IMG/VR virus record: IMGVR_UViG_3300045974_000167
Location: 19,560 to 83,559 of that record
DNA length: 64,000 bases
From: a virus
Direction: 5' to 3' (one strand)
Under the pieces are notes generated by a model. It ran no database searches, was not told the origin of the DNA, and saw only the letters and a list, made by a program, of their open reading frames with translations. This document shows, in pieces, positions 2 through 63,084 of the stretch (position 1 is its first letter; each line of letters begins with the position of its first letter). The translations under genes and the position numbers were made by a program.

Positions 2-2131
2 AATGCCGGGATTGAACTAACCGGGGGAAATAGCCCTACGCTGGGTAGCGCCTATGCCGCCGCCAGTCTCTCTAACTGGGGCGAAGTCATTCTCCGCACA
101 ACCGCACCAGCAGGAGCAGCACTTGCTCAATTCATGCTCCGTGTATCCAGCCATAGTTCTGGTACATGGCAGGTAGATAACGCTTATCTATACCTAGCGG
201 ATCAATCCTCGCTTTCTACCGCCGATAGAAACGCGCTGGATAGTATGGCGGCGGCGCTAGATGACAGCAAGCTTTCTTCCTTAGAGAAAGCCTCCATTGT
301 CCCCGCGTATAAGTCGATGCTGCGGGCGTATTTCGGTACATCTGGGTCTAACGGACTAGCGTATACGGCAGGTCAGTACGCGGCCCCGCATACAATCGCC
401 ACCACCAGCTACACCTCCGCTATCACCACTCTTAAGGCAACTCTAGAGGGGTACGGTCTTAAGTTCGGAACAGTTAATACTGTTGTATGGGACTCCGGAC
501 CCTCCACCGAAGTAGCTTGGACGGCGGATCCCACCCCCACCACCGTCGATGGGCCTGCGCTGCGGGCGCAGTACACCTCTGCCCTTCTGGAAGAGTCGGC
601 ACTTCGGCAATCGATTGCAGACGCGGAGCGCCTAACCCGCCTAGACCTTGCTGGGACTATTACGCAGGTCGGCGGGGACGGGTACCTAACTCCTAGCGAG
701 CGCCGCACAATGCGGTTGATTTACCAGAACACGGTATCTCAGGGTACGGTAATCCTAACTAGGATTGTAACTGAGCTTGACCCCAAGAGTATCCCCTGCG
801 ATCACTCCGCGTATGATTCCGCTTTAACAGCACTAACCACGTATTTGAATGGGTTATCCCCGGATCTACGTGTAGATCCCGCCACTCTTACCGCGCCGCA
901 GCAGGTTGCTAATACTCCTATCACTGATAGGGCCGCGTGGTATAACGCATGGAAGGCATTCCTAGACGGGTTCACGCTGTTACAGACCAACTTCACCAAG
1001 GCGGCGCAGGATACTGCAAATTCTGCCATGGATATTTTATCCGCGATTGGATCGGATAATATCCTGTCTAAAGGTGCAGAAAAACAAGCACTAATTCAGA
1101 TATACCGTGCGGCGCAGAAAGACTATTCTGCGGCGTATTCCATACACCAGAAGTTATCCCCTAATCAATCTTGGGGTGTAAATCTTACAACGGATACCGG
1201 GCCAATGTGCTGGCACACCCCCGCCGGGGATGCTACGCACTGGTTCTATGCCCTAACCCGTATGACCTCCGCTAACCCACAAACCCCGGTGGTTGGTGGT
1301 AGCGCGTATTGGTATGATCTAGGGGTAGCTATTGATAACTCCGTATCCGGTACTCCAGCAGGGGCGTATAATTTATTCAACGTAGCGGGGGCAGACCTCG
1401 TTTCTTACATCGGCAGCACTTTAGGGCTATCAGATCCTCTAGTAGTATGGCCCGCAGGTACGTACGTGCCTGGAAACGAAGCCACCTGGATTACGTATGA
1501 CACCCCGATAGATGGGGCCTTATTACGGCAGAAGTTTGCCACGTTCTATTCTGCACAGGCTAATTTTGAGGCTAGTGTAGATACTATAAAGACTAGCATT
1601 CGTGCGGCGCAGGCTAAGTCCGGTGGTTTAGTCCTCGCTAGTGCATCTAGGTTAGGGTCTGTTAGGGTTGGCAGCGGACTAACAATCGATTCTAACGGGA
1701 TTCTAAGTGCGTTAGGTGGCGGCGGTGGGGGCGGTGACGCTACTACCTTAGGTTCCAAGTACCCGGATGTTTCCGCTACCGCCGATACGATTGCACAGCG
1801 CGATCTAAACGGGTGGTTGTTTGCGGTAGATGTTTCTACTTCGTCTGACGCCCGCCTAAAGTACGATGTAGCATCCATCAAGGGCGCGCTTGATAAGGTG
1901 CTTGCGATGCGCGGCGTGACCTTCACCCGTGTAGGTGACACCCGTAAACAGATGGGGGTTATTGCCCAGGAGATGGAAGAGGTTGCTCCCGAGGTTGTTC
2001 ATACTGACGATGAGGGCATGAAATCTGTTACGTATGGTAACCTTGTAGGGGTGTTGATTGAGGCTGTGAAGGAACAGCAGGCAACCATCGTGCAACTGAT
2101 TGCACAGGTTGATGCCCTGACCAAGAACTAG
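2..2131 (+). CDS. Tail fibre / receptor-binding protein with S74 chaperone domain (5' partial)
   Basis: The reading frame is open to the left edge, so the N-terminus lies outside the window. The visible part has three helical repeats starting with D-x-L-(S/T)-x-x-E-(K/R) (near bases 280, 680 and 1060), a repeat style seen in lambda-J-like host-specificity proteins. A run of glycines (about base 1710) links to a C-terminal intramolecular chaperone domain of the peptidase S74 family: SSDARLKYDV carries the Ser/Lys self-cleavage signature, followed by GVIAQEMEEVAPEVV and a C-terminal coiled coil. Such domains trimerise the fibre and then cut themselves off. The palindrome occurs twice inside the gene. 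The next gene starts two bases after the stop. Confidence 0.85.
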   Translation, partial: NAGIELTGGNSPTLGSAYAAASLSNWGEVILRTTAPAGAALAQFMLRVSSHSSGTWQVDNAYLYLADQSSLSTADRNALDSMAAALDDSKLSSLEKASIVPAYKSMLRAYFGTSGSNGLAYTAGQYAAPHTIATTSYTSAITTLKATLEGYGLKFGTVNTVVWDSGPSTEVAWTADPTPTTVDGPALRAQYTSALLEESALRQSIADAERLTRLDLAGTITQVGGDGYLTPSERRTMRLIYQNTVSQGTVILTRIVTELDPKSIPCDHSAYDSALTALTTYLNGLSPDLRVDPATLTAPQQVANTPITDRAAWYNAWKAFLDGFTLLQTNFTKAAQDTANSAMDILSAIGSDNILSKGAEKQALIQIYRAAQKDYSAAYSIHQKLSPNQSWGVNLTTDTGPMCWHTPAGDATHWFYALTRMTSANPQTPVVGGSAYWYDLGVAIDNSVSGTPAGAYNLFNVAGADLVSYIGSTLGLSDPLVVWPAGTYVPGNEATWITYDTPIDGALLRQKFATFYSAQANFEASVDTIKTSIRAAQAKSGGLVLASASRLGSVRVGSGLTIDSNGILSALGGGGGGGDATTLGSKYPDVSATADTIAQRDLNGWLFAVDVSTSSDARLKYDVASIKGALDKVLAMRGVTFTRVGDTRKQMGVIAQEMEEVAPEVVHTDDEGMKSVTYGNLVGVLIEAVKEQQATIVQLIAQVDALTKN

Positions 2132-2133
2132 CC

Positions 2134-2613
2134 ATGGCACTTCCCGCATCAGGAATACTGAAACTCTCAGATATTATTGCTGAATTCGGTGGGCCGGGGA
2201 ATCTGCGGGCGTATCTGTACGGTGGGACATATGTAACCGTCGCGGACTACGCCCCTAACGTACCGTCCAGCGGGAACATTACCCTTCGTAATTTCTTGGA
2301 CGCGGCAAAGGCAGGAAACCGACTATCCGTAGTCGCTAATCCCAACTACATTGATGGCTTTGGCGTCGGTATATCTGCCCAGAACGTGAACACCGGAGGA
2401 ACTACAATAAGCTCTGACGGCACCGGCCCATTCACGTACGCATGGTCTGTACTCTCCGGTGGAGGGACTATTATCGGGACCGGGGCCGGGGTGTACGTAC
2501 GGGAAAGATTACCATTGTGGGGCATGGATTCAGGACAGATCCAATGCGTAGTTACGGACTCTACCGGGCGTACTGGATCTGCCATAATAGACTACTACCT
2601 AGATAACTCCTAA
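2134..2613 (+). CDS. Virion structural protein with Ig-like C-terminus
   Basis: The N-terminus (MALPASGILKLSDIIAEFGG, then PSSGNITLRNF) is the short motif common to many phage tail or baseplate-associated proteins. The C-terminal half (about residues 65-159) alternates like an Ig/BIG-type beta sandwich, with FTYAWSV and QIQCVVTDSTGRTG matching polycystic-kidney or cadherin-like strand patterns. It follows the fibre gene after two bases and precedes a strong terminator, so it probably closes the late tail operon. A fibre-attached or surface-adhesion role is inferred. Confidence 0.7.
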   Translation: MALPASGILKLSDIIAEFGGPGNLRAYLYGGTYVTVADYAPNVPSSGNITLRNFLDAAKAGNRLSVVANPNYIDGFGVGISAQNVNTGGTTISSDGTGPFTYAWSVLSGGGTIIGTGAGVYVRERLPLWGMDSGQIQCVVTDSTGRTGSAIIDYYLDNS

Positions 2614-2633
2614 CCTTTTGAATTCTCGGCGGG

Positions 2634-2675: not shown

Positions 2676-2727
2676 GCCCATAAGTAACTGACTGCGATCA
2701 ATTGCAGGAAAATACCCCCCCGGGGGG

Positions 2728-2761: not shown

Positions 2762-3124
2762 ATGCTATTATTCAAGCCTGGGGTAGACCTCAATAATTTG
2801 AAGCCTCAGGCGGCGGCTGCTATGACTGTAGCTGCTGGTGTATTTGATTTTTACCGGTCCCACTGCATGGTCACCTCCGTAGGGGACAGCAAGCACGGAA
2901 TTGACTCACTGCATTATAAAGGTCTTGCATTTGATTGCAGACTTGCCTCCCGGTACAACTCGACACTTCAGGGAGTAGACGCCGCCGTCGTAGCTAAACT
3001 TAAGGAGTCTCTGACGGCCCAGTACGATGTTGTTCTTGAGGGTGAGGATACCCCGGGGGCCTCAGGTGCTCACATCCATATTGAGTATGATCCGCTCCAC
3101 GACGGTAAGCCCGTTATTGTCTGA
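2762..3124 (+). CDS. Endolysin, M15-family L,D/D,D-peptidase
   Basis: This 120-residue protein has the M15 zinc-peptidase signature: S49-x-H51-x-x-G54-x-A56-x-D58 gives two zinc ligands, and H104-I-H106 gives the third ligand region. The family cuts peptide cross-bridges in peptidoglycan (D-Ala-D-Ala carboxypeptidase or L-Ala-D-Glu endopeptidase fold). There is no separate cell-wall binding domain and no signal peptide, so export would depend on the holin that follows. The gene starts a transcription unit after a terminator. Two cysteines (C35, C59) could form a disulphide. Confidence 0.88.
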   Translation: MLLFKPGVDLNNLKPQAAAAMTVAAGVFDFYRSHCMVTSVGDSKHGIDSLHYKGLAFDCRLASRYNSTLQGVDAAVVAKLKESLTAQYDVVLEGEDTPGASGAHIHIEYDPLHDGKPVIV

Positions 3125-5196: not shown

Positions 5197-5210
5197 TGCA
5201 ATCGATTGCA
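5197..5210 (+). repeat. Perfect 14-bp palindrome copy between lysis and fibre genes
   Basis: A perfect TGCAATCGATTGCA lies in the 94-base gap before the next fibre gene. No clear promoter was seen next to it; a weak GGGCC/GGCCC hairpin with a T run (5244-5268) follows. Confidence 0.85.
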
Positions 5211-6704: not shown

Positions 6705-8285
6705 ATGGCTCAGGCGTTCCAGACCGACTTCGTACAGTCGGACGCCTTTGAGGCCGCTGCTCCTTCGGGTGCGCTTGATGGAAGCATCGTTGCGCCTACT
6801 AGTACCGTAACCGGATCTCTTTCCGTAGTAAAAGCACTAACCGGTACGGTTGCGGCGCAGGTTTCTACTGTTTCCGGGTCATTATCTGTAGTAAAGACCC
6901 TCACCGGTACTGTAGCTGCTCAAGTCTCTACTGTAACTGGTGATCTAACTGCTTTTGGTAGTCTAACAGGGGCCGTCGCCGCCGTAACAAGCACGGTTAC
7001 CGGCGATTTATCTGTAGTAAAGACCCTTCAGGGCGCGGTTGTCGCCCCCGCGTCTACTGTCTCCGGAGAGCTAGCTAAAACCGCAGCCCTTGCTGGTGCA
7101 ATCAATTGCACAAGTACGGTGGTCGGCGGTATCTCCCTAGCGGTCAATCTCACCGGTACTGTAACTGGGATCCCTTCAACCGTTTCCGGTACTGTCTCCC
7201 AGGTTGTAAACCTAGCGGGCGCTGTACCCGGGATTACTTCTACCGTAACTGGGTCCGTCAATAAGACGGATACTCTAACCGGTGTAATCGCCGCCCAGGT
7301 AAGTACGGTCGCAGGTGACTTGACCGTCATTTCTTTGACGGCACTAACCGGCAGTATCGCCGCCCCCGCATCAACCGTTACCGGTGAGTTAGCAGTAACT
7401 AAGACTCTCTCCGGGGCGGTTGTCTCTGCTGCCTCAACTGTAGCGGGGTCCATAACTAAGGTCGCCACTCTTACAGGGGCGGTGCCCGCAGTTACGTCCG
7501 TTGTATCCGGGTCACTTGCCTTAGTTAAGGCGTTATCCGGCGCTATTAGTGCCATCACCAGTACCGTTACCGGTTCCCTAACCTCGGTAGGGGACACTCA
7601 ACTAAGCGGAACAATCGCCGCTATTCCCAGTATTGTTACTGGTGATCTAGGCGTAAGTAAGAACCTGACCGGTAGTGTCCCGGCCCAGGTATCTATCGTT
7701 ACCGGTAAACTGACCATCGACCTGCACGGGGCTATAGGCATTGCCCCTTCGGTTGTTACCGGTGAACTGACGGTAGGAAAGAGTCTGTCGGGATCGATCA
7801 TTTCCCCGGCATCTATCGTTAGTGGCGATCTCTATAAGGTAGTCACGTTAGTCGGCAGCATCCCGGGGCAAGTATCTGTTGTCTCCGGTGAACTACTGTC
7901 CTCGTCCACCCTTACTGGGTCAGTATACGGAACTGCCACCGTCGCCGCTGAATTATCGAAGCGGGTTAACCTAGATGGCTTCGTTCTTTGCCCCAGTAGC
8001 GATGTTGCTGGGGAGCTAACTTACGTCGTCAATCTATCCGGCAACGTCGTAGCCCTAGCCACCCTGCTGGGTGAATTGTACGTATCCCAACCGGGCGTTA
8101 GTGTCTCAATCGATATTGGGAAACGTGTCTTAACTATTTACGGGCTGGGGCCGATAGCGGTAGTTAAGACGATATTCCCTACCGCTGACATCAATACTAT
8201 GCGGCCCGCCCACAAGATTTATGCCGCCGAACCCGTGGCAACATGGGTAGTTACTGGCGCTAAGAACAAAACTTTCGTATCATAG
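6705..8285 (+). CDS. Repeat-built fibre protein with 21 tandem repeats
   Basis: About residues 24-460 consist of 21 head-to-tail repeats of 19-23 residues. The pattern is L-x-G-x-(V/I)-x-x-x-x-S-(T/I/V)-V-x-G-x-L-x-V-x-K-x, ending in a non-repeat C-terminus of about 65 residues. Such short beta-forming units are typical of a solenoid or shaft. GGGAG lies before ATG 6705. Repeats near the N-terminus are almost identical at DNA level (GTAGTAAAGACCCT recurs), while later ones have drifted, consistent with growth by duplication. It probably forms a tail spike or fibre shaft. Confidence 0.8.
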   Translation: MAQAFQTDFVQSDAFEAAAPSGALDGSIVAPTSTVTGSLSVVKALTGTVAAQVSTVSGSLSVVKTLTGTVAAQVSTVTGDLTAFGSLTGAVAAVTSTVTGDLSVVKTLQGAVVAPASTVSGELAKTAALAGAINCTSTVVGGISLAVNLTGTVTGIPSTVSGTVSQVVNLAGAVPGITSTVTGSVNKTDTLTGVIAAQVSTVAGDLTVISLTALTGSIAAPASTVTGELAVTKTLSGAVVSAASTVAGSITKVATLTGAVPAVTSVVSGSLALVKALSGAISAITSTVTGSLTSVGDTQLSGTIAAIPSIVTGDLGVSKNLTGSVPAQVSIVTGKLTIDLHGAIGIAPSVVTGELTVGKSLSGSIISPASIVSGDLYKVVTLVGSIPGQVSVVSGELLSSSTLTGSVYGTATVAAELSKRVNLDGFVLCPSSDVAGELTYVVNLSGNVVALATLLGELYVSQPGVSVSIDIGKRVLTIYGLGPIAVVKTIFPTADINTMRPAHKIYAAEPVATWVVTGAKNKTFVS

Positions 8286-9148: not shown

Positions 9149-10351
9149 TTGTTTGACCTAGCTTTCAAGGCTCGTCTGCCCATTATCGGTGTGCAGACGG
9201 ATGATACCGCTAACTTCGATAAGGTACTCGCGTTTTACGCGGCCCCTAAGAAGGTGGCTTCTCTTGCGGAGAAGCACAAGACGCTAGGTCCGTACCTCTA
9301 CTGGACTGATGATGAGGATCTGGTTACCACGGATACCTACGAGGAATTCCGCGCCGCAGGATTGTCGCTAATAGTCCTTAATTTCGATACTTCCCGCAAG
9401 AATCCACTGATTTTCGACGGAGGCATCCTCCCGACCCCGGATCCTTTAGTCAGGTATCTTCTATCTGATATGCTAGGGGAAGAATGGGTAGAGCCAATCA
9501 TCCCAGGTCTTCGCGGCCTGTCTCTGAAATCCATTAGGGAAGTCCTACTACTTACCCAAGCACGAGTTAATGGAATTACCCTCGCTGAGATCCGGCGCAC
9601 TAGGTCGTCCCTCGTGGGTGGGGCTACCGGACTCTATCTTGAGGATTCTAGCTATGACTTTTACCAGTGGCCGGAACATCTTAGGGCGTGGTTGGAGCTT
9701 AATAAGTCGTATTTTCACAAGGAAACGCACCACAAGCTTGTACCAAGGGGACTTATGTTTAACGGACCTCCCGGTGTGGGGAAGTCCATGGCGGCTAAGG
9801 CCATCGCAAATACGTTTGGTGTACCGCTATACCGATTCGATATCTCAAGCACTCTCGACAAATACATCGGAGTCTCCGAGGGTCGAGTTCAGAACGTTCT
9901 TGATCTCGTCAACCGAGAAGCCCCCTGTGTTCTTCTCCTAGACGAAGTAGAGAAAATCTTCCAGGGTAAGGAGGATTCGGGGGTAATCAATCGACTGTTA
10001 TCTAAGTTACTGTGGTGGCTTGCAGAACATCAGAGCCGGGTGTTCACGGTTATGACCACTAATGATAAGAGTTCGATCCCTCCCGAGTTGTACCGGACAG
10101 GCCGCATCGATAAGGTGATGCCTATCTCCAAGTTGACGTTCAATGAATCCCGTAAGTTTGCGGCGCAGGTGTTCGAGAGTATCCTAGAGATGAAGCCCGC
10201 TCTAGGACAAGTCCCGACGATTACGAAGGCTCTGCAATCGATTGCGCCCGCAGACTATCATCCTGACTTTCCCCTACTAGCCCACGCCGATGTAACGGAG
10301 GTAGTCGTTAACGAAATTAAAAAGCACGGTTGGGACGTTCCCAAAAAATAA
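9149..10351 (+). CDS. AAA+ ATPase, FtsH/Ycf46-like
   Basis: This protein of 400 residues has Walker A GPPGVGKS, Walker B VLLLDEVEK, a sensor-1 TTND and a RTGRID arginine-finger region. An N-terminal domain of about 200 residues is of unknown type. The TTG at 9149 is preferred over GTG 9143 because other genes with the CAATGGAGTG leader start 3-6 bases after it, and GTG 9143 would lie inside the ribosome binding site. The ATPase resembles Ycf46/FtsH-type remodelling ATPases without a protease domain. A palindrome copy lies at 10233-10246. Substrate unknown. Confidence 0.85.
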   Translation: MFDLAFKARLPIIGVQTDDTANFDKVLAFYAAPKKVASLAEKHKTLGPYLYWTDDEDLVTTDTYEEFRAAGLSLIVLNFDTSRKNPLIFDGGILPTPDPLVRYLLSDMLGEEWVEPIIPGLRGLSLKSIREVLLLTQARVNGITLAEIRRTRSSLVGGATGLYLEDSSYDFYQWPEHLRAWLELNKSYFHKETHHKLVPRGLMFNGPPGVGKSMAAKAIANTFGVPLYRFDISSTLDKYIGVSEGRVQNVLDLVNREAPCVLLLDEVEKIFQGKEDSGVINRLLSKLLWWLAEHQSRVFTVMTTNDKSSIPPELYRTGRIDKVMPISKLTFNESRKFAAQVFESILEMKPALGQVPTITKALQSIAPADYHPDFPLLAHADVTEVVVNEIKKHGWDVPKK

Positions 10352-11143: not shown

Positions 11144-12154
11144 ATGCCCGAAAACGTGATAGTCGTTAAGCCTGTGTATAAACAGATCACGGGCAGCATG
11201 AATTCTGCGGCGCTCCTAGCTCAAATAATTTATTGGCATACCCCCGGCGCTACCGGCGCGACTAAGCTGCGCGTAAAACGCGATGGGGAATTGTGGCTCG
11301 TTAAATCGTGGAAGGATTGGGAAACCGAAATCGGCCTTTCCCGAATGCAGAGCCGTGTAGCTCTTGACAAACTGCGGGCATTGGGGCTTATATTCACCCA
11401 AGTCCACAAGTTTAACAGCACGCCAACGACGTACATCAAGCTCCGGGTAGACATGCTTGATGCGGCCATCGAAAAGGTCAATGATTCCGCCGAAAAGTTA
11501 CCGGTAACCAATCACGGAATGGTTACCAAGGGCCAATCCGATTGGTTACCGGTAACCAATCTTATAACAGAGACTACTAAACAAGAGACTACACATGACA
11601 CTTTGTCCGCAAAATCAGAGAATGTCAAAGAAGCAGTAGAGAAGGAAAATATGGCAACATTAGAAGAGACATTAAAATTTAAGAAAGAACAGGCTGAAAA
11701 AGTTTTAGCGGGAACGAATCCGGCGAAACTCGCTCTACGCTGGAAGAAGCGACTAGCCAAGACATATGGCGGTTATGTGAAAGATTTGACCGGTGCCGAA
11801 ATGGGACAGCTCGGTCTACTCGCTAAGATGATGGGGCCTACGGACACGGCTAAGTACATCGAAAAGACCGTGGATCTCGCGGCTACGAACTGGGAGGAGT
11901 ATGTATTTGAGGTCAGGGCCAAGTACGGGTTAACCACGACACCCGAAAGACCCGTTGTAGGTTTCCTACTGAAGTACCATGATGTTGCTATTCAGATGTT
12001 GCAATCGAGTGCAAAACAGGTTAAGCCTCAGAATGTAACTCCGTTGAAGGCGGAATCTGTTGCCGCGCCTCAAGAAGTGACTAAGACTAAGGTTGACGTA
12101 GCTTCTAAACAAATGGTCGCGGAGGCCCTCGCAAAACTGAAGCAACAGAAATGA
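11144..12154 (+). CDS. Replication initiator (winged helix, DnaD/lambda-O type)
   Basis: This protein of 336 residues has an N-terminal winged-helix region (about residues 20-115), in which SRMQSRVALDKLRALGLI looks like the recognition helix and wing entry. Such N-termini are typical of phage replication initiators that bind an origin inside their own gene. The C-terminal half is helical and Lys/Ala-rich and may recruit the helicase. GAGGGG lies four bases before ATG 11144. The gene holds a dense set of inverted repeats followed by an A-rich strand, a candidate origin. A loader-like gene and DnaB helicase follow. Confidence 0.75.
   Translation: MPENVIVVKPVYKQITGSMNSAALLAQIIYWHTPGATGATKLRVKRDGELWLVKSWKDWETEIGLSRMQSRVALDKLRALGLIFTQVHKFNSTPTTYIKLRVDMLDAAIEKVNDSAEKLPVTNHGMVTKGQSDWLPVTNLITETTKQETTHDTLSAKSENVKEAVEKENMATLEETLKFKKEQAEKVLAGTNPAKLALRWKKRLAKTYGGYVKDLTGAEMGQLGLLAKMMGPTDTAKYIEKTVDLAATNWEEYVFEVRAKYGLTTTPERPVVGFLLKYHDVAIQMLQSSAKQVKPQNVTPLKAESVAAPQEVTKTKVDVASKQMVAEALAKLKQQK
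11497..11710 (+). other. Candidate replication origin inside the initiator gene
   Basis: The 17-base repeat GTTACCGGTAACCAATC occurs at 11497-11513 and 11545-11561. The second copy is part of a perfect 20-bp palindrome ATTGGTTACCGGTAACCAAT (11541-11560), and a partial unit GGTTACC lies between (11521-11527). Immediately downstream the + strand becomes A/G-rich and C/T-poor for about 140 bases (11563-11710). Iterons followed by an asymmetric AT-rich segment within the initiator gene is the lambda origin layout. Function is inferred. Confidence 0.6.
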
Positions 12155-15009: not shown

Positions 15010-15048
15010 GGGGAGTCTGCACTTGATTGCAGGCTCCCCTAATCTTTT
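15010..15048 (+). terminator. Terminator whose stem contains a palindrome copy
   Basis: GGGGAGTCTGCA (15010-15021) pairs with TGCAGGCTCCCC (15028-15039) with one G-U pair and a CTTGAT loop, followed by AATCTTTT. The palindrome copy TGCACTTGATTGCA (15018-15031) forms the top of the stem and the loop. Confidence 0.75.
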
Positions 15049-16164: not shown

Positions 16165-16178
16165 TGCAATCAATTGCA
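16165..16178 (+). repeat. Palindrome copy overlapping primase start codon
   Basis: TGCAATCAATTGCA ends on the A of the primase ATG (16178). No ribosome binding site is visible between the previous stop and this ATG, so a protein bound here would cover the start region. Confidence 0.8.
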
Positions 16179-18283: not shown

Positions 18284-19575
18284 TCAATCTGACTGAAATC
18301 CCGTTATGGACGGACGCTATGGCTGTCTATCCATACTCGGAAGGTATGGAGGCGGCGTTCACGTTTGTCTCTACCTACGGTGATGAAGTCAAGATGGCTG
18401 TGCGTAGCGGCAACCATATCCTTGTGCCCCGCCGTGTCGCCCCATTGGGTGGGCATGACAAACGGGTGAGTCGGCCGCTTCCTGCAATCGATTGCAAGAT
18501 GCCGCCTCTGGATGTGGAACAGGCTGGGTGTATTTCTTCCTCGCTGAAACTTCTACAGAACGGGGTTGACCACGTTCTAGAGGCCCCTACCGGGTTCGGC
18601 AAGACCTATATCGGTTCGGCAATCGCGGCGCGACTAGGACAAGCGACCCTGATTGTGGTCCCTAAACAGGACTTGATGGATTCTTGGTACAAGACCCTGA
18701 TCAATCTTGTGGGAGTAACCCCGGATGATATCGGAATCGCCCAAGGCGCTAAACTCGACTACAAAGGCAAACGATTCGTACTCGGCATGGTACAAAGTAT
18801 CATCCGACCCGGCAAGTATGAAGAAGATTTCTACCGATCTTTTGGATTGGTTATCTTCGACGAAACGCATCGTATGGCTGCGGAATGTTTCTCCCGAGCC
18901 TGCATGTTGTTTCCTGGTATGCATAGACTCGGACTTTCCGCCACTCCTAAAAGAAATGATGGAAAAACACCTGTCATTAGTGCCCATATCGGGCCTGTCC
19001 TCGTTAGAGGTGTCACCGTCCCCATGAGCCCGAAAATCCTCGTAGAGAGCACCGGTTGCGGGCTCCCTTCGTGGATGGACAACATCGACCCCGGTAGGAT
19101 GATGGCTGCCTACGGGGCGTTGTCCAAGAATACCCAACGTAACGAAAAGATCGTAGGTTTCACCAAGAATGCCTACGGCAAGGGTCGGACTATAGTGCTC
19201 ATGTCAGACCTCATTTCACACCTAAATCTCCTTAGCAACATGCTGATCCAGGCGGGCATCCCTCCCACGGATATCGGGATGTATACCGGCGAGGTTCAGC
19301 GTGTCCTGCTCAAGCCCAACGCCAACAAGCGGGTAATCCTCGCCACCTATGGAATGTGCTCCGAGGGCACAGACTATCCGCATTGGGATACCCTGATCAT
19401 GGTAACCCCCCGCGCTAACATCAAACAGCCGTTAGGGCGTATTCTACGTAAGAAGGCTGGCAAACCCACCCCCGTTGCCCTCGACCTAGTTGATAGCGGG
19501 CGCATCTTCAAGGGCTTCTACTACAAACGCTTGAAGCAATACCATGAGGTAGGAAGCGAGGTCGTTCAGCTATGA
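18280..19575 (+). CDS. SF2 DNA helicase, UvsW/RecG-like
   Basis: This protein of 431 residues carries SF2 motifs in order: APTGFGKT (I), VIFDETHRM (II, DExH), LSATPKR (III) and QPLGRILRKK (VI). TTG 18280 is preferred because GGAGA lies seven bases upstream and it makes a four-base overlap with the zinc-ribbon gene. The family (T4 UvsW and XPB-like) remodels branched DNA and R-loops during recombination-dependent replication. A perfect palindrome lies at 18483-18496. Confidence 0.87.
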   Translation: MINLTEIPLWTDAMAVYPYSEGMEAAFTFVSTYGDEVKMAVRSGNHILVPRRVAPLGGHDKRVSRPLPAIDCKMPPLDVEQAGCISSSLKLLQNGVDHVLEAPTGFGKTYIGSAIAARLGQATLIVVPKQDLMDSWYKTLINLVGVTPDDIGIAQGAKLDYKGKRFVLGMVQSIIRPGKYEEDFYRSFGLVIFDETHRMAAECFSRACMLFPGMHRLGLSATPKRNDGKTPVISAHIGPVLVRGVTVPMSPKILVESTGCGLPSWMDNIDPGRMMAAYGALSKNTQRNEKIVGFTKNAYGKGRTIVLMSDLISHLNLLSNMLIQAGIPPTDIGMYTGEVQRVLLKPNANKRVILATYGMCSEGTDYPHWDTLIMVTPRANIKQPLGRILRKKAGKPTPVALDLVDSGRIFKGFYYKRLKQYHEVGSEVVQL

Positions 19576-20018
19576 GCAACGATACTCTGACCACCACCAA
19601 GGTTTCTTCGTTTAAGAAGTGGTACGACGCTAACAAGGAAGAATTCGCAAAGAGGCGGCGCGAGAGATACCATGCTGATGAAACTTTCCGGAAGAATGCC
19701 CTCGAAAGGTCAGCCTCTTACCGTAGAGGTAAGAGGGTTGAGGAACGCGGCCTCCCTCCCGGCTATTCTGTTACTCACTCGGATGCTTGCGAGAAACTGG
19801 GCATTGAGGCACCCGTTCTGCGAGCCTGGGCACGAAAGAACTACTACCCCGAACCCTTCCAGGCCAACAAGCGTATCTATTTCACAGAAGGGCAGATAAC
19901 CCTGCTAACGCACTTAGTTGCATTCTTCCAGATGCAGCCACCGCATCGTCGTCTTGGGCCTATTGCTCTAAAGAAACTAGACGAACTTACCTCCTACATC
20001 CACGCGAACTGGAACTAG
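19572..20018 (+). CDS. MerR-like helix-turn-helix protein
   Basis: This protein of 148 residues has a basic N-terminal tail (KRRRERY). Residues about 65-120 (VTHSDACEKLGIEAPVLRAW, then YFTEGQITLL) match the DNA-binding domain of MerR-type regulators. There is no obvious effector domain. Being a DNA-binding protein in an early operon, it is one of several candidates for recognising the dispersed palindrome, though nothing in the sequence proves that. Confidence 0.72.
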   Translation: MSNDTLTTTKVSSFKKWYDANKEEFAKRRRERYHADETFRKNALERSASYRRGKRVEERGLPPGYSVTHSDACEKLGIEAPVLRAWARKNYYPEPFQANKRIYFTEGQITLLTHLVAFFQMQPPHRRLGPIALKKLDELTSYIHANWN

Positions 20019-20019
20019 A

Positions 20020-20490
20020 ATGGCTATCAATATGAAGCCCCCTGCGGGGATTCCGCAGGTGAAATCGGTTGCAAAGTACGACGAACATTTAGCCAAGGCT
20101 GCCACAGAAGAAGAGGCACTAACGGCTAAGGCAATGGCGGCAATCAACCTTCCCAACGAATTCATCCAGCATCTAAAGTCCCCGTCCTCCACCGGTACGG
20201 TGAAGGTTGATCACCTCAAGACTGACTACGGGAAGAAGACCGTAACCCCTGTGGAGGAAACCACTGAGTCGATGGTTGCCCCGCCCATTCCGCTCGATAA
20301 GCTGCACAATCTGGCGGTTGCGGGAAAGATGACTATCAATCTTGGTAACTACGAATCTGCCCAGATCATGGTGTCTCTCACGGTTCCATGCACCAAGGAA
20401 ACCCTAGAGGACGCCTATGCCTACGCCTCTGATTGGGTGTCCGACAAGATCGAGTCTGCTGTTGCCAAGGCGAAGAAGGGTAACTCCTAA
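20020..20490 (+). CDS. Recombination-associated protein of unknown function
   Basis: This protein of 156 residues has a C-terminal half containing INLGNYESAQIMVSLTVPC followed by a helical DAYAYASDWV segment, a motif I associate with phage proteins adjacent to recombinases. It overlaps the recA start by one base, so a RecA-mediator role is plausible but unproven. A degenerate palindrome (TGAAATCGGTTGCA) occurs at 20060-20073. Confidence 0.7.
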   Translation: MAINMKPPAGIPQVKSVAKYDEHLAKAATEEEALTAKAMAAINLPNEFIQHLKSPSSTGTVKVDHLKTDYGKKTVTPVEETTESMVAPPIPLDKLHNLAVAGKMTINLGNYESAQIMVSLTVPCTKETLEDAYAYASDWVSDKIESAVAKAKKGNS

Positions 20491-22207: not shown

Positions 22208-23109
22208 AATTCCTAGAGAACGCTGTGAAGAAGGCCCACGGCCCTACACACAGCATCATCCAAGCGTTGAAGGAACACCTAGGAAAGCCCCTCAAGGCTC
22301 GTTCCCACAAAGAGATCCATGCCTCCGACCTGACCAAAGAGCACTTCTGCCCGCGAGAGGTAGCTCTACTTGATACTCTGATCCTTACCCGTAAGGATCA
22401 GCACGTAGGTACGGCTATGCGGGTGACGTTCGACGTTGGGGAACTAACGGCTAAGGCGTTCACGGACAAGTGGCTGCGCGATAAGGTAGTCGGTGATTGG
22501 TATTGTCTGCGCTGTGCGGCTATGCGTAGGTTTGTGAAGTACCCCGACCCTACCGACTCCACCGGGGGCTGTAGCACTTTGGGCCATTTATGGGAACACA
22601 TGGAGATCCGGTTTAAGGACGAGTATTTCCAGTATTCAGGTGCAATCGATTGCATTCTTGACCTAGGAGCGCCGAAGCTCACGATTGTCGAGCTTAAAAT
22701 CATGGCACCCGAAATGTTCGCCAAGCTTGAGGCCCCGCTTGCCGAGCACCGGATCCGCACCAACCTCTACATGAACCTAGTTGAGAACTCGAAACACCCG
22801 AACAAGGACAAAATCAATACAAAGTGGGCCAAAATCCTGTATATCTCGCGGGGCTACGGGAAGAAGGGGGAATCCGGAGAAGTCCTACCCTTCAAAGAGT
22901 TCGATGTAGAACGCAACGATGATGATTTAGAGACTCCGCTAGGTAAGGCCCTCGCGGTTAAACACTTTAGAGTAACAGGCCAAATTCCTGGGGGCATCTG
23001 CCCTTTTTCCTATTCCCCGGAAGCAAAATCGTGTACGGTGAATAATCAATGCTTTTCCGGAAAGTACCCCCCCGTTAAAGGACTTGACTCCAACGGCGGG
23101 AAGTATTAA
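22204..23109 (+). CDS. Cas4/RecB-like exonuclease with iron-sulphur cysteines
   Basis: This protein of 301 residues has the RecB-family core: YSGAIDCILD (catalytic Asp), TIVELKIM (E-x-K) and a downstream helix with RTNLYMN. Cysteines in HFCPRE (N-terminal) and three near the C-terminus (ICPFS, KSCTV, NQCFS) match the four-Cys Fe-S cluster of Cas4 and AddB-type nucleases. A further Cys-rich insert (CLRCAAM and GGCSTLGHL) may bind zinc. It probably resects DNA ends for RecA. A perfect palindrome lies at 22641-22654, spanning the codons of the catalytic segment. Confidence 0.85.
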   Translation: MKFLENAVKKAHGPTHSIIQALKEHLGKPLKARSHKEIHASDLTKEHFCPREVALLDTLILTRKDQHVGTAMRVTFDVGELTAKAFTDKWLRDKVVGDWYCLRCAAMRRFVKYPDPTDSTGGCSTLGHLWEHMEIRFKDEYFQYSGAIDCILDLGAPKLTIVELKIMAPEMFAKLEAPLAEHRIRTNLYMNLVENSKHPNKDKINTKWAKILYISRGYGKKGESGEVLPFKEFDVERNDDDLETPLGKALAVKHFRVTGQIPGGICPFSYSPEAKSCTVNNQCFSGKYPPVKGLDSNGGKY

Positions 23110-23141: not shown

Positions 23142-23681
23142 GTGCCCGTAACGATAACGAAAAAGCTTGTATCGGTGCCATCCGCTACAAGCATCCTGGG
23201 ACGGGTGATGGGTGTTGACCCGTCAACGTACACCGGCATAATTGTACTAGACGGTGATACGGTAGTGTGTCGAAAAGTAATCAATTTCCCCGAAGTAGAG
23301 GGGTATAAGCGGTTGCAACTGATTGCACGGGAGTTTATGAGGTTGGTACGGATGAACACGCCGCGCCATATCTTCATCGAGCAACAGATTTTCGGCGGCA
23401 AGTTCAACCACGCCGTACAGGGTCAAATCAGCGCACTACTCAGAATGTCGTTGTTTGAGTACGGCGAGCCGTGGTACGACGTAACTCCTACCACGCTGAA
23501 GAAGTGGGCGACGGGAAGCGGTAAGGCTGACAAAAAACAGATGAAGTCAGCGGTACTTGCTAAGTGGGGATTTGATTCAAAGAGTGACGACGAAGTAGAT
23601 GCGTATGCAATCGCCCGTCTTGGGCAATTCGTAGTCGGCTCACCGTCGCCTACGATAAAGGGTGTAAATAAAGGAGTGTAG
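23142..23681 (+). CDS. ruvC: RuvC-like Holliday junction resolvase
   Basis: This protein of 179 residues has the RNase-H-fold catalytic set: MGVDPST (first Asp), IFIEQQIFGG (Glu) and DDEVDAYAIARLG (C-terminal acidic pair), with KKQMKSAVLAKWGF matching the usual DNA-contact helix. GTG 23142 follows AGGAA by four bases. It resolves four-way junctions before packaging. A palindrome copy lies at 23314-23327. Confidence 0.87.
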   Translation: MPVTITKKLVSVPSATSILGRVMGVDPSTYTGIIVLDGDTVVCRKVINFPEVEGYKRLQLIAREFMRLVRMNTPRHIFIEQQIFGGKFNHAVQGQISALLRMSLFEYGEPWYDVTPTTLKKWATGSGKADKKQMKSAVLAKWGFDSKSDDEVDAYAIARLGQFVVGSPSPTIKGVNKGV

Positions 23682-24544: not shown

Positions 24545-25330
24545 ATGAGCGAAACCCCTGTTTCTGATGTGCAGGCTACGACCGAGGCTCCCCCCGTAGA
24601 GAAGGTTGCCAAGGCCAAGGTGAAGGCGGCTGGCAACTTCATCATGGACACCGCCACCGAGATCGAAACCCTCACCAAGACCAAGGCGCTGAATTACGCC
24701 GACAAGCTTGCCGAGGACATCGACAACAACAGCTTCAAGCTCGGCGGCTGCCTCAAGGTGATCCTCGATAACGGTTGGTTCGAGGGTGCCGAATCGTTCG
24801 GTGAGTTCGTCGCCAACCGGTTCGGGTTTCAGGAGCGTAAGGCCCGCTACCTGATGGAGATTTACGAGAACCTCGTTTCCAAGCAGATTCCTTGGGAGAA
24901 GGTTCAGATCCTAGGGTGGTCGAAGCTGAAGGATCTCGCCAAGCACCTGACGCCAGAGAACGTCGATGAGTGGGTCGCCAAGGCCCAGAACGTGACGGTC
25001 ACCGAGCTTCAGGCGATGCTCAAGGCCACCGCGTCGGACTCCCCCGACAAGACGACTTCGGACACCACCACGCTGAAGTTCAAGTTCAAGAACGACCAGC
25101 TTGAGACTGTTCAGTCGGCGCTGTCGAAGGCGAAGGCCGAGACCAACACCGAGTTCGACAACGTTGCCATCGAGAACATCTGCGCTGGCTACCTCGGCGG
25201 CACGGTCGCCGCTGCGAAGGGCGCTGACCTCAAGACCCAGATGCAGGGCGCTGGGTGGGAGGCTGTCCTGGGAATCTTCGGAGAGCTGTTCCCGAAGGTT
25301 GACCTCACGGTTTCGGTGCAGGACGGGTAG
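24545..25330 (+). CDS. Unknown helical protein with own promoter
   Basis: This protein of 261 residues has a Thr/Lys-rich N-terminus and a helical middle (ESFGEFVANRFGFQERKARY) that looks like a helix-turn-helix embedded in a phage-specific domain. A C-terminal part has alternating polar helices. GC-rich codons and a strong promoter suggest abundance. A terminator follows, so it is monocistronic. Confidence 0.72.
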   Translation: MSETPVSDVQATTEAPPVEKVAKAKVKAAGNFIMDTATEIETLTKTKALNYADKLAEDIDNNSFKLGGCLKVILDNGWFEGAESFGEFVANRFGFQERKARYLMEIYENLVSKQIPWEKVQILGWSKLKDLAKHLTPENVDEWVAKAQNVTVTELQAMLKATASDSPDKTTSDTTTLKFKFKNDQLETVQSALSKAKAETNTEFDNVAIENICAGYLGGTVAAAKGADLKTQMQGAGWEAVLGIFGELFPKVDLTVSVQDG

Positions 25331-26017: not shown

Positions 26018-26064
26018 TGCAACTGATTGCAGGATTTGACAATCCTAGAGTGTTGATGTAATCT
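26018..26064 (+). promoter_or_regulatory. Palindrome plus strong promoter
   Basis: TGCAACTGATTGCA (26018-26031) lies five bases upstream of TTGACA (26036-26041); 17 bases later comes TAATCT (26059-26064), followed by the CCATGGAGGGA leader. This is the clearest operator-next-to-promoter arrangement in the left half. Confidence 0.88.
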
Positions 26065-36435: not shown

Positions 36436-36449
36436 TGCAATCAATTGCA
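36436..36449 (+). repeat. Palindrome copy between PIG-L and next gene
   Basis: TGCAATCAATTGCA starts with the base after the PIG-L stop and ends just before the GGAGGG ribosome binding site of the next gene. Confidence 0.85.
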
Positions 36450-42850: not shown

Positions 42851-42864
42851 TGCAATCGATTGCA
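42851..42864 (+). repeat. Perfect palindrome copy after tRNA cluster
   Basis: A perfect TGCAATCGATTGCA lies three bases after the last tRNA. Confidence 0.88.
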
Positions 42865-45087: not shown

Positions 45088-45125
45088 CGCAACTGATTGC
45101 AAACCATAGAAACATGCTGTATTGT
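45088..45125 (+). promoter_or_regulatory. Class A promoter built into palindrome
   Basis: In CGCAACTGATTGCA (45088-45101) the right half supplies the -35 box TTGCAA (45097-45102). Seventeen bases later is TATTGT (45120-45125), followed by CAAATCATTG. It fires into a gene-free region. Confidence 0.82.
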
Positions 45126-46683: not shown

Positions 46684-46721
46684 TGAAATCGGTTGCACTC
46701 TGTAGAAACATACCGTATTGT
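46684..46721 (+). promoter_or_regulatory. Class A promoter with degenerate palindrome
   Basis: TGAAATCGGTTGCA (46684-46697) supplies TTGCAC (46693-46698); 17 bases later TATTGT (46716-46721) and CAAATCATTG, then the leader. Nearly identical to the promoter at 45088. Confidence 0.82.
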
Positions 46722-47963: not shown

Positions 47964-48019
47964 TGCAATCGATTGCAAAGATGATTGTGCTTGTCAAACG
48001 TAGAATCATGTGCGACCAT
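47964..48019 (+). promoter_or_regulatory. Palindrome and promoter
   Basis: A perfect TGCAATCGATTGCA (47964-47977) lies 13 bases before TTGTCA (47991-47996), followed by 17 bases and GACCAT (48014-48019), then CCATGGAGGGA. Confidence 0.72.
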
Positions 48020-52561: not shown

Positions 52562-52619
52562 TACGAGATTATGGGGAGCTGGCAGGAGAGAACTAGAAAG
52601 GCTAGTGCAACTGATTGCA
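52562..52619 (+). repeat. ACGAGA-family repeat plus palindrome
   Basis: TACGAGATTATGGGGAGCTG begins on the base after the stop, continues as GCAGGAGAGAACTAGAAAG, and is followed by TGCAACTGATTGCA (52606-52619). The rest of the gap to 52806 holds a class B-like -10 GACCAT (52706-52711) and the CAATGGAGTGA leader. Confidence 0.75.
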
Positions 52620-53466: not shown

Positions 53467-53695
53467 TGGCTAGTTAGCAGGTGAGATAGACTAGAAATTC
53501 CCGGCCCGCGTCACCCCGTTAAGCTAGTAGACCATTATTGATACGAGGCTCGTACAAGCACGCAAAAACCCTACCCGCTACCCCCCCACCACCCCGACCC
53601 GCCAAAGGTCACCATGAGGCTCCTGCGCGTTCTAATAGGAATCCTAATTGCCCCCTCTGACCTCACTTCCGACCTAGAGCGTTTCTGCAATCGTG

Positions 53696-53765
53696 TGCAA
53701 AGTATAGGGGGCAGTACGCACGCCCCAAATGTTCCCACCCACCCCACAGAATGCCCTGCTACGGT
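53696..53765 (+). promoter_or_regulatory. Degenerate palindrome and class B promoter
   Basis: TGCAATCGTGTGCA (53696-53709), the ACGCCCCAAATGTTC motif, then GAATGCCCTGC-TACGGT (-10 at 53760-53765) and the CAATGGAGTGA leader. Confidence 0.55.
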
Positions 53766-54595: not shown

Positions 54596-54626
54596 TGCAC
54601 ACGATTGCAGAACGGCGTGTTACCTT
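54596..54626 (+). promoter_or_regulatory. Class B promoter overlapped by palindrome
   Basis: TGCACACGATTGCA (54596-54609) ends 11 bases before the extended -10 TG-T-TACCTT (TACCTT 54621-54626). The ACACCCCAAA motif precedes it. Confidence 0.7.
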
Positions 54627-55306: not shown

Positions 55307-55348
55307 CGCAAACGATTGCAAGACGGTCTTAGACCGCCCTGTTACTGT
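55307..55348 (+). promoter_or_regulatory. Palindrome variant and class B promoter
   Basis: CGCAAACGATTGCA (55307-55320), then an inserted spacer and CCCTG-T-TACTGT (55343-55348). Confidence 0.5.
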
Positions 55349-55650: not shown

Positions 55651-55681
55651 TGCACACGATTGCAGACCGCCGTGTTACGGT
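55651..55681 (+). promoter_or_regulatory. Class B promoter overlapped by palindrome
   Basis: TGCACACGATTGCA (55651-55664) and TG-T-TACGGT (TACGGT 55676-55681), preceded by ACGCCCCAAACG. Confidence 0.7.
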
Positions 55682-57131: not shown

Positions 57132-57162
57132 TGCAATCAATTGCAGAACGCCCTGCTATGCT
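57132..57162 (+). promoter_or_regulatory. Class B promoter overlapped by palindrome
   Basis: TGCAATCAATTGCA (57132-57145), GAACGCCCTGC and -10 TATGCT (57157-57162). Confidence 0.7.
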
Positions 57163-57566: not shown

Positions 57567-57581
57567 CTGCAACTGATTGCA

Positions 57582-58343
57582 GACAGCACGAGACTCTAGG
57601 TGGCTGGGAGGAAAGAAAGATAGGAAGGCTGGTACCCAGTACGAGACTATGGCTAGCTGGGTAGGAGTAGCAAGAAAGATAGAAGGAGCAGCAAAGCAAG
57701 ACAAGAAAGGAAAGCAAGAAAGAAGTAGAAAGACTGGAAAGACGAGAAAGAAAGACAGCAGGAGAAAGACGAGAGTGAGATCGAGACTATGGCTGGGTAG
57801 GTAGGTGAGCATAGCGAGGTAAGGCAGGCTGGGCGAGCGAGGCTGGACAAGACCGTTTTTTCAAAATCGACCGACCTGCTCTGTCTACTTTGCGTCGGCA
57901 CGCCTTTTTCCCGTGCCAAAACGAACGCCCCTTTCCGTGTCGTGTGCGTTCGGTACGTGTCCCGTGTCTTTTGCCCCACCCAACATGACCCATCTGTTTT
58001 CATGCACTTACCTCGTTTCTTGCGTGTACCATGCGTCTTTTGCCCCAACCATGCCCCACCCCCCCGCGCCCCTTGACGTTCCAACATGTTGAAATCACTG
58101 CAAACGATTGCGCCCGTGTTTCGGCACGGTCGCTGCAATGACTCCGGAATGTCGTTGTTGAATCTTCGGTCCCGCCGCTGAAAATCGGACCTGCGAACGA
58201 CCGACCCGGCCCCCGGCAATCGACCCGAAACCCGAAAAAACGTTCTCGGAACGTGCCTTTGCGGTGTTTCGGCATACCCCAACGGATCGACCGTTGAACC
58301 TTGAACGGCGACCGAAACCCGTTGTATCCATACGGAAAATCAA
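57582..58343 (+). other. Repeat and low-complexity region, right part
   Basis: No gene is supported. ACGAGA-family repeats lie at 57586-57630, 57640-57688 and 57780-57822 within an A/G-only-like tract to about 57850. Beyond it the composition switches to pyrimidine-rich with two copies of a GTCTTTTGCCCCA(A/C)CC unit (near 57966 and 58030) and a palindrome variant (58099-58112). An apparent promoter TTGAAC-18-TATCCA (58301-58330) leads to the next gene. Confidence 0.55.
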
Positions 58344-59150: not shown

Positions 59151-59158
59151 CGTGACTT

Positions 59159-59472: not shown

Positions 59473-59655
59473 ATGTCTGACCCTGTTGACAGGATGTGCG
59501 AGTGTGGGCACCTTGAATCCCGGCATGGCTACACCTCGTCTGGGCAGTTTACTTGTAACGACCCCCTGTGTATGTGCAGGGTGAACTTCAAGCCTGTAGA
59601 GGTTGCTCACGTTGCTCTATCCGGCTCGATTGTGGGCAAGGGTTCGATGAAGTAA
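59473..59655 (+). CDS. Small zinc-binding protein
   Basis: This 60-residue protein has MCECGHLESRHGYTS and CNDPLCMCR. ATGGAGGCTCCTA precedes ATG 59473. Confidence 0.65.
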   Translation: MSDPVDRMCECGHLESRHGYTSSGQFTCNDPLCMCRVNFKPVEVAHVALSGSIVGKGSMK

Positions 59656-61921: not shown

Positions 61922-62259
61922 GTGATTGCTCTATTCCTTGTACCGGTCGATGTTGTGAGATGTTGGCACTACCGTTTCTCATGGAGGAATACAAACAATC
62001 TTATGAGAACTGGCTGGCGGGTCGGCCCCACCTAAAAGATATCTGGATTATCTACCCGATGCTGAAACCGCCACCAGAGAAACTCTATAAAGAACTTCTC
62101 GATACAGTCGGAGGCGATCCATATAAGCTTGTCTCCTTCCACTACGGATGCAAGCACTTAACAGAGGATAAGAAGTGTAGCATCTACGATGCTAGACCTC
62201 AGATGTGCAGGACGTTCCCAGATGATCATCCTTGCCAGTTTTGCGGAGTAACAGCATGA
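61918..62259 (+). CDS. YkgJ-family cysteine-cluster protein
   Basis: This protein of 113 residues has an N-terminal CSIPCTGRCCEML and a C-terminal CKHLTEDKKCSIYDARPQMC...PCQFC, the YkgJ (CxxCxxCC) pattern thought to bind a metal or Fe-S cluster. GTG start overlaps the glycosyltransferase stop. Confidence 0.8.
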   Translation: MSDCSIPCTGRCCEMLALPFLMEEYKQSYENWLAGRPHLKDIWIIYPMLKPPPEKLYKELLDTVGGDPYKLVSFHYGCKHLTEDKKCSIYDARPQMCRTFPDDHPCQFCGVTA

Positions 62260-62354
62260 AGAAGGCTCTGATTTACGCGGCGTGGTTTCTGGCGGGATTC
62301 TTCATCGGGCCTATCCTTGCCTATTTCGGAATTATGAGTCTCTGGAGGCCGTAA
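62256..62354 (+). CDS. Small membrane peptide (32 residues)
   Basis: The 32-residue product is nearly all one hydrophobic helix (KKALIYAAWFLAGFFIGPIL) with short charged ends. Four-base overlap with the previous gene and one-base with the next supports translation. Confidence 0.62.
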   Translation: MKKALIYAAWFLAGFFIGPILAYFGIMSLWRP

Positions 62355-62662
62355 TGACATTAGGAAAAAATCTTGGAACGGTCGGCGGGCACAACTGGTA
62401 CCGTCTACCGTCCAAGTTCGTAGAACGGTTGTGGTGTACCCGCTGCGGGTGTCTTGCCGAGGGCGACTTGCTCTGGGCAATGAATCTGAAGTTAACCCGC
62501 TGGGATTGGCAGTTCACACTACCCGGGAATCCTGTAAAGGTGATTAAGAGTTCCGAGGATGTTCCTAAATGCCCCAACGGTGTTGGGTACAACCAGACCA
62601 CGCTCATGCGGGAGCAGGGACTACAGAAACTAGAGCGTCAGGCCAAGGGAGAAATCGAATGA
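62354..62662 (+). CDS. Unknown Cys/Trp-containing protein
   Basis: This protein of 102 residues has WCTRCGCLAEGDLLW and a basic tail. The ATG overlaps the previous stop by one base. Confidence 0.62.
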   Translation: MTLGKNLGTVGGHNWYRLPSKFVERLWCTRCGCLAEGDLLWAMNLKLTRWDWQFTLPGNPVKVIKSSEDVPKCPNGVGYNQTTLMREQGLQKLERQAKGEIE

Positions 62663-63084
62663 TTGAAAAGAACACCATCAATTTCTGCGGAAGGCCCTTG
62701 CTCGATTGGGAACCCGGCGACGAACAGTTCAAGAAGATTTTGAAGATTACGTATGATAAGGGCTGCGAACATTACATCGCCAAGCCCAGCGATACTATTA
62801 TCTTCCTAATGCGGAAGGTGAAGGAACTTGGCAATCAATTGCACGACGTAGAGGCTACCCCTATGTCGGAGTGGGCGGCTACTCTCGCGGCTGCGAAGGA
62901 GAACGTGGAGGGAACGGCGGCTTTGTTACATGAGGCCGAGAAGCGTATTGCGAAACTGGAGGCGATGATTCCGCAGTATGCACCGGAACCTCCAACGCAT
63001 TGCCATTGTCCCCGTAGCGTTCCTCTAACGCAAGATCAGAAACGATGCTCTTGGTGTTGGTTACCTCGTAAGGAAAAGACCTAA
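62659..63084 (+). CDS. Unknown coiled-coil protein with zinc motif
   Basis: This protein of 141 residues has a coiled-coil centre (about 75-110) and a C-terminal HCHCPRSVPLTQDQKRCSWC metal site. Four-base overlap with the previous gene; a palindrome variant (62830-62843) lies within. Confidence 0.65.
   Translation: MIEKNTINFCGRPLLDWEPGDEQFKKILKITYDKGCEHYIAKPSDTIIFLMRKVKELGNQLHDVEATPMSEWAATLAAAKENVEGTAALLHEAEKRIAKLEAMIPQYAPEPPTHCHCPRSVPLTQDQKRCSWCWLPRKEKT

Follow-up and report, generated by a model that had tools for sequence, protein, structure and literature searches.

The 64,000-nucleotide stretch of viral DNA analysed here (the window; bases 19560-83559 of the 83,559-base record IMGVR_UViG_3300045974_000167) carries a network of dispersed 14-bp palindromes in which the half-sites TGCAA and TTGCA flank a four-base centre. 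The sites are roughly evenly spaced and under strong purifying selection in relatives; the network is present throughout a phage clade, accompanies one replication module, and differs in its centre between phages of the same host genus. We tentatively propose, as a reading that falls somewhat short of probable, that the palindromes are the sites of a phage-encoded dimeric helix-turn-helix (HTH) protein that would organise the extrachromosomal phage genome and act at an operator at a promoter-proximal minority of sites.

Palindromes in the window and across the clade

A scan for TGCAATCGATTGCA with up to three mismatches returned 39 matches in the window, spanning positions 606-62843; dinucleotide shuffles of the window (n = 100) gave a mean of 2.21 and a maximum of 5, which bears out the preliminary description of about 39 copies as far more than chance. 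The 19.5 kb of sequence to the left of the window contain six additional copies, and a symmetric weight matrix identified 47 sites in the whole record (83.6 kb) and none in its reversed sequence. Codon-preserving shuffles, named in the preliminary description as a possible refutation, retained a mean of 0.75 and at most 3 matches (n = 20), against 17 observed in plus-strand open reading frames of at least 100 aa; since shuffling of synonymous codons erases the excess, the excess is real and does not derive from codon usage. The window copies at 20828 and 33481 score too low to pass the matrix threshold and may have arisen by chance; four weaker sites (49170, 50112, 50626, and 61372) were found by the matrix only. 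The half-sites are conserved as originally claimed, but the claim that the variants keep the dyad does not hold throughout: many window copies have an imperfect dyad with asymmetric centres (CTGA, TCAA, ACGA), and the downstream half is better kept. A near-identity search with the first 24 kb of the window against phage records returned no match. The sites found by the pattern scan, other than those at 20828 and 33481, are listed below in window coordinates; strand is undefined for all of them.

606..619, GGCAATCGATTGCA, one mismatch
2091..2104, TGCAACTGATTGCA, two mismatches
2693..2706, TGCGATCAATTGCA
2926..2939, TGCATTTGATTGCA
5197..5210, exact, directly 3' of the stop codon at 5191
7097..7110, TGCAATCAATTGCA, intragenic
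10233..10246, TGCAATCGATTGCG, intragenic
12000..12013, TGCAATCGAGTGCA, intragenic
15018..15031, TGCACTTGATTGCA, TTTGACA ~20 bp downstream of the site
16165..16178, TGCAATCAATTGCA, last base is the A of the primase start codon
18184..18197, TGCACCTGATTGCA
18483..18496, exact
20060..20073, TGAAATCGGTTGCA
22641..22654, exact, within the exonuclease gene
23314..23327, TGCAACTGATTGCA, within the RuvC-like gene
26018..26031, TGCAACTGATTGCA, intergenic
27759..27772, TGCAACTGATTGCA, intragenic
28710..28723, TGCAATCGGTTGCA, intragenic
31656..31669, exact, intragenic
36436..36449, TGCAATCAATTGCA, immediately 3' of a stop codon
38963..38976, TGCAACTGATTGCA, immediately 3' of a stop codon
40020..40033, CGCACTTGATTGCA
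42851..42864, exact, 2-3 nt 3' of tRNA-Val
45088..45101, CGCAACTGATTGCA, 3' of a stop codon
45544..45557, TGAAACTGATTGCA
46684..46697, TGAAATCGGTTGCA
47964..47977, exact, immediately 3' of a stop codon
50556..50569, TGCAACTGATTGCA
52606..52619, TGCAACTGATTGCA
53686..53699, TGCAATCGTGTGCA
54596..54609, TGCACACGATTGCA, repeated flank context
55307..55320, CGCAAACGATTGCA, repeated flank context
55651..55664, TGCACACGATTGCA, repeated flank context
57132..57145, TGCAATCAATTGCA, repeated flank context
57568..57581, TGCAACTGATTGCA
58099..58112, TGCAAACGATTGCG
62830..62843, GGCAATCAATTGCA

Relatives were gathered by means of the UvsX-like protein encoded in the window, which yielded 25 viral contigs, plus named phages from phage records:

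20490..21704, plus strand, UvsX/RecA-like recombinase, a marker for the replication-recombination module found together with the network

Sites per genome were counted with symmetric weight matrices built genome by genome, with the reversed sequence as control; the matrices were refined on the same genomes that were counted, a concern that the control limits but does not remove. The network was found in all 34 examined records sharing the helicase/primase/UvsX/RuvC module, with 16-57 sites in each and 1,297 in total, against 0-5 in the reversed sequences; the preliminary observation holds, on a larger scale than first described. Several of these records are fragments, and gene calls outside Stenotrophomonas phage DLP5 are mechanical. 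The named relatives carrying the network include the Stenotrophomonas phages DLP5, DLP3, and Summit and phages of Rhizobium, Rhodobacter, Vibrio, and Aeromonas. In a first simple dyad search the network had seemed absent from G013, G018, and the Vibrio phage VHS1, a result overturned by iterative matrices, which recovered weaker or shifted versions. Phages chosen solely by homology to the product of 24545-25330, a candidate reader discussed below, have 29 (RcDurkin), 16 (Aeromonas HJ05), and 47 (Rhizobium L338C) perfect copies of TGCAA-N4-TTGCA, with none in the control. Four unrelated phages tested lack the network (RcTitan 0, RcSalem 1, N4 0, and P1 5, with 4 in the P1 control); RcTitan and RcSalem share their Rhodobacter host strain with the network-bearing RcDurkin and RcZahn.

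Across the clade the half-site TGCAA/TTGCA is nearly constant and the centre varies. DLP5, Summit, and most soil contigs have TCAA; the genome studied here has TCGA, together with CTGA and TCAA; the Vibrio phages, G015, and G018 have TTAA; Rhizobium I4/L338C and Aeromonas HJ05 have CNNG; Rhizobium Y1_11/TM16 have CANA; G022 has TAAA; and L027/L030 have GCGC/GCGA, while the G020/L025 version of the motif reads CGAAATTAATTTCG. The Rhizobium phages thus carry two different centres, and two Rhodobacter phages also differ from each other, with TCGA at 45 of 54 sites in RcDurkin and TCAA/TTAA in RcZahn; since phages of one host genus have different centres, the protein reading the sites is probably phage-encoded. 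Literature searches for the site sequence returned unrelated papers only and no description in a phage context, in agreement with the preliminary description, which knew of no such phage site; the DLP3 paper does not mention palindromes.

Close relatives show how the sites are maintained. DLP5 and DLP3 are 84.6% identical where aligned; of the 34 DLP5 sites in the alignment, DLP3 retains 33 as sites and has 28 unchanged at all 14 positions, compared to 20% of random or flanking 14-mers. Among the six sites that differ, five have changed in the central four bases only and one (73273) is lost; at site 39626 the DLP5 centre TCAA is reversed to TTGA in DLP3. It follows that the half-sites are under selection and the orientation of the centre is not. 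Between DLP5 and Summit (90.9% identity), 33 of 34 sites are kept and 32 are identical, against a background of 38-42%.

The coefficient of variation (CV) of inter-site distances ranges from 0.39 to 0.71 in 33 of the 34 records, compared to ~0.95 for random placement (P ≤ 0.012 where tested), and the sole exception is G020, a 34-kb fragment with a CV of 1.15; in the genome studied here the sites are likewise spaced more evenly than at random (CV 0.71, P 0.011). The sites are kept roughly 1.7-3.9 kb apart, over the whole genome. The majority of sites are intragenic; in DLP5, 9 of 36 are intergenic, against 1.8 expected. A start codon follows several of the DLP5 and RcZahn sites after 11-16 nt; those of DLP5 lie just 5' of the Shine-Dalgarno sequence.

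The proximity of sites to promoter elements varies within the clade. In 26 genomes taken together, a -35-like hexamer occurs within 45 nt of 180 sites, compared to 67 at random positions; the majority of sites have no such hexamer nearby. A subset of sites in the Vibrio phages VHS1 and Ares1 follows a fixed order of terminator, site, 8 nt, TTTACA, 17 nt, and a TATATT-like element. The preliminary description had copies in the accessory region overlapping promoters; in the window this is weakly supported, because a consensus promoter scan of 42000-59500 produced three candidates, against 6.9 in shuffles, and none lay on a palindrome site, although 7 of the 47 sites of this genome are within 45 nt of a -35-like hexamer (2.7 expected). 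Its wider view of a network of protein-binding sites mixing operator-like with DNA-organising traits is well supported by the purifying selection, the even spacing, and the promoter enrichment in some relatives.

Within the same region, 53686-58112 contains repeated promoter-like cassettes ahead of small accessory genes, built around shared site flanks; at 54596, 55307, 55651, and 57132 the palindrome is preceded by flanks of the type CCC(A/T)AAA..C and followed by GA.C..C..TGTTAC or TGCTAT. At 42518-42848, next to an exact palindrome, lies a cluster of four tRNA genes (Leu-TAG, Leu-TAA, Lys-TTT, Val-TAC).

Candidate readers

The proteins present in every or nearly every genome are the helicase, primase, gp32-like single-stranded DNA-binding protein (SSB), UvsX, exonuclease, RuvC-like resolvase, DnaB, an AAA ATPase, TerL, and the 24545-25330 product. 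The following proteins are considered as candidate readers:

24545..25330, plus strand, candidate reader 1, a 261-aa protein (phrog_17202) with a homologue in every genome searched
19572..20018, plus strand, candidate reader 2, a 148-aa MerR-type winged-helix protein with a RacA-like fold, between the helicase and UvsX genes
32526..33257, plus strand, candidate reader 3 (less likely), a protein with a ParB N-terminal domain (PF02195, 3.6e-13)

The 24545-25330 product, which the preliminary description did not name, is the only unexplained HTH-like protein in every genome. Its structural model contains an all-helical domain at residues 32-164 (predicted local distance difference test, pLDDT, ~95) plus a C-terminal domain; by eye, the predicted helices seem to adopt an HTH-like arrangement resembling the ParB DNA-binding domain. 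Weak fold matches in keeping with this are Spo0J and, among viral models, phage proteins with a DUF3102 domain and one annotated as a "chromosome partitioning protein."

The MerR-like protein, which the preliminary description had put forward as a reader, remains plausible: it is a true MerR-type winged helix, MerR_1 being matched by 18 of 18 homologues (best 1.9e-11), and the model aligns with DNA-bound RacA (5i44) with a probability of 0.99 and a root-mean-square deviation of 1.9. It is missing, however, from G016, G017, G018, and the Rhizobium (Y1_11, TM16) and Rhodobacter (RcZahn, RcDurkin) phages, which keep 26-54 sites. As sole reader it is weakened by these seven network-bearing phages, and by protein distances that do not track motif distances after removing phylogeny. 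The ParB-like protein, also named in the preliminary description, is missing in G001, G009, G013, G021, VHS1, and others, and is rejected as a universal sole reader. In the relatives G006, G007, G012, G015, and RHph_I4, the gene with the ParB N-terminal domain occurs in two or three tandem copies or in an enlarged form (528-577 aa). In DLP5, 47761-48564 is the homologue of the 24545-25330 product, gp059 the MerR-like and gp114 the ParB-like protein. All of these proteins are candidates; the 24545-25330 product is ranked as the most likely reader, followed by the 19572 protein and then by an unrecognised protein.

Proposed genome organisation and rival explanations

In the proposed mechanism, each subunit of a dimeric phage HTH protein would read one half-site (TGCAA), with the four-base centre tuned phage by phage. 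Bound at roughly even intervals of 1.7-3.9 kb, the protein would seed nucleoprotein complexes along the genome that compact and organise the extrachromosomal phage replicon and help to maintain it; at a minority of promoter-proximal sites, the same protein may act as an operator-bound regulator that represses or tunes transcription, in a mode akin to that of KorB on plasmid RK2 or of a DNA organiser of the RacA/ParB type. The dimeric, phage-encoded reader, its organising role, and its repression of transcription are inferences, with the proteins listed above as candidate binders. An extrachromosomal state is documented within the clade, as DLP5 persists as a plasmid-like prophage (PMC5834331) and the phage genome is extrachromosomal in lysogens of VHS1 (PMC3148565). 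A bolder and rather doubtful version is that these phages form a clade of 80-120 kb genomes with a phage-encoded nucleoid system, in which a novel dimeric HTH protein of the recombination operon would read palindromes placed evenly every 2-3 kb and would pack, maintain, and silence the genome in both lytic growth and plasmid-like lysogeny, with spacing, and not proximity to genes, under selection.

Several observations weigh against the organiser reading. A fold search of the PDB with the 24545-25330 product gave no strong match (Spo0J at a weak probability of 0.28), and the Pfam profiles HTH_ParB (PF17762) and KorB (PF08535) did not match anything in the record at E ≤ 10. A Mantel test of motif distances against protein distances singled out no reader, with partial r values of 0.16 for the 24545-25330 product, -0.07 for the MerR-like protein, 0.28 for the AAA ATPase, and 0.29 for TerL. 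Asymmetric centres are oriented one way with respect to transcription in this genome (CTGA, 12:0), in G007 (TCAA, 38:4), and in RcZahn (TCAA, 12:1), a bias that a symmetric dimer does not explain; orientation is unbiased in G012 and G014 and shows no or weak bias in most clade genomes (DLP3 and Summit were left out of this analysis, since the gene caller was unreliable there), and a universal orientation with transcription is thereby ruled out. Some phages of the clade, for example R21Y, are described as lytic (PMC10671443); the maintenance role may therefore not apply to all members.

An unlikely but substantial alternative is a pure immunity network, in which a lysogeny repressor would occupy all sites as in a palindromic analogue of the L5 stoperators, blocking a few promoters and elsewhere halting elongating RNA polymerase, and thus silencing one very long operon in the prophage. 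The 20-60 dispersed sites per genome, the position of nearly all genes on one strand, the enrichment of DLP5 sites between genes and of sites beside promoters, the temperate lifestyle of DLP5 and VHS1 (PMC5834331, PMC3148565), and a motif drift that follows phylogeny as in Cluster A phages (PMC6550527) are in its favour. Yet stoperators are not dyad-symmetric and have to point along the direction of transcription (PMC6550527, PMC9283540), whereas the centre flips at DLP5/DLP3 site 39626 and its orientation is unbiased in G012 and G014; the clade includes phages described as lytic; and the genes of the 24545-25330 and 19572 proteins are both located in the recombination operon, neither of them in a separate repressor locus.

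A different and distinctly less likely possibility is that the palindromes load or position a replication or recombination protein of the module, for instance as restart points or guides of recombination-dependent replication, without regulatory function. The helicase/primase/SSB/UvsX/exonuclease/RuvC module accompanies the network in every record, spacing is even at ~2-3 kb, and lytic and temperate members alike carry the sites; but neither Chi-like nor primase sites are palindromes, a 14-bp dyad implies a dimeric binder of double-stranded DNA, and the fixed promoter geometry in the Vibrio phages would be left unexplained. A host regulator, nucleoid protein, or modification enzyme as the reader would suit a TGCAA half-site common to phages of very different Proteobacteria, and transcript hairpins of the form UGCAA-N4-UUGCA, often just upstream of the Shine-Dalgarno sequence, would suit the 5-bp stem with tetraloop, the DLP5 and RcZahn sites that end shortly before start codons, and the one-sided centre orientation in this genome. 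Both are disfavoured because centres differ among phages of one host genus and because the centre flips. The host target, which also faces unrelated phages of the same host without sites, is very improbable; the hairpin, rated slightly lower still, was rejected as the main function, given that G-U pairs are rare among stem mismatches, TCAA flips to TTGA, other genomes are unbiased, and most sites are intragenic.

Further features were noted in the window. The element CATGGAGGG occurs in 13 copies, all on the plus strand (15114, 26075, 39064, 40578, 42142, 43295, 43501, 45598, 46746, 48046, 50855, 51503, and one left of the window), mostly 3-6 nt ahead of ATG or GTG, possibly as an extended ribosome-binding or start-associated sequence; CAATGGAGTG, which looks like a sister element, occurs in nine copies on the plus strand only, near start codons (9136, 10413, 25403, 40281, 52792, 53789, 55949, 59674, and one left of the window). 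The neighbouring genes 60690-61313 and 61310-61921 encode similar N-termini (VVVPTRGNPR and VVIPTRGNPR), an apparent tandem duplication, and 38173-38664 encodes a protein with HNH and AP2 domains, a probable homing endonuclease.

The network shows that tailed phages can keep a genome-wide set of evenly spaced sites even when deeply diverged and spread over many hosts, in association with one replication module; if an organising or silencing role is true, it constitutes a system of genome-wide control not described before, in a large phage family. Once found, the reader would provide a tractable model for DNA organisation and silencing in phage-plasmids, an entry point to immunity in phages of Stenotrophomonas, Vibrio, and Rhizobium, and a basis for using the network as a sequence signature that assigns metagenomic contigs to this clade; the choice between stoperator and chromatin-like organiser becomes directly testable in the isolated phages DLP5, VHS1, and RcDurkin.

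Comparison with known systems

The network belongs among the dispersed binding-site networks, in a version previously undescribed in the literature searched. Noc and ParB sites are palindromes of 14-16 bp, dispersed on the bacterial chromosome and bound by HTH dimers that assemble nucleoprotein complexes; the phage sites resemble them as short dispersed palindromes with a presumed dimeric HTH reader, but ParB sites cluster near the origin, whereas the phage network spans the genome evenly. RacA binds a 14-bp GC-rich palindrome with many chromosomal copies, thereby organising and anchoring Bacillus DNA. The 19572 protein shares with RacA the MerR-type winged helix, according to the profile and fold matches given above, and the 14-bp palindrome in many copies; the site sequence is different, the phage protein has N-terminal basic helices, and, unlike a reader found wherever its sites occur, it is missing from seven network-bearing phages.

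KorB of RK2 belongs to the ParB family and silences distant genes (PMC11790492). The likeness to KorB and its operator O_B lies in palindromic sites on an extrachromosomal replicon, a state documented for DLP5 and VHS1, and in the ParB-type HTH reader of the partition family. The phages differ in having 16-57 sites per genome and in a best candidate without a detectable ParB/KorB HTH profile or a fused ParB N-terminal domain; no HTH-domain reader of the PF17762 or PF08535 type was found in the record, and the ParB N-terminal (CTPase/nuclease) domain is represented by the 32526 protein, though several network-bearing phages lack it.

The preliminary description had also pointed to the L5-type stoperators of mycobacteriophages. 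In Cluster A phages (L5, Bxb1), these sites have no dyad symmetry and follow the direction of transcription (PMC6550527, PMC9283540); like the network described here, they comprise tens of short dispersed binding sites, few of them at promoters, with a motif that drifts with phylogeny, and the L5-type trait of 20-30 or more dispersed sites per genome, some in promoters, is shared. L5 sites, however, are asymmetric, read by a monomer, and typically placed in short intergenic gaps, whereas the sites described here are palindromes with a flippable centre, mostly intragenic and evenly spaced; the TGCAA-N4-TTGCA consensus holds in nearly all genomes, half-site mismatch rates are similar in most, and orientation with transcription is absent or weak in most genomes, with a clear bias in this genome, G007, and RcZahn. 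Since stoperators are asymmetric and transcription-oriented and these sites are palindromic, with a centre that flips between close relatives, the network is not an L5-type stoperator set. In site architecture KorB/O_B and RacA are closer to the network than the stoperators are; the stoperators are its closest parallel among phages.

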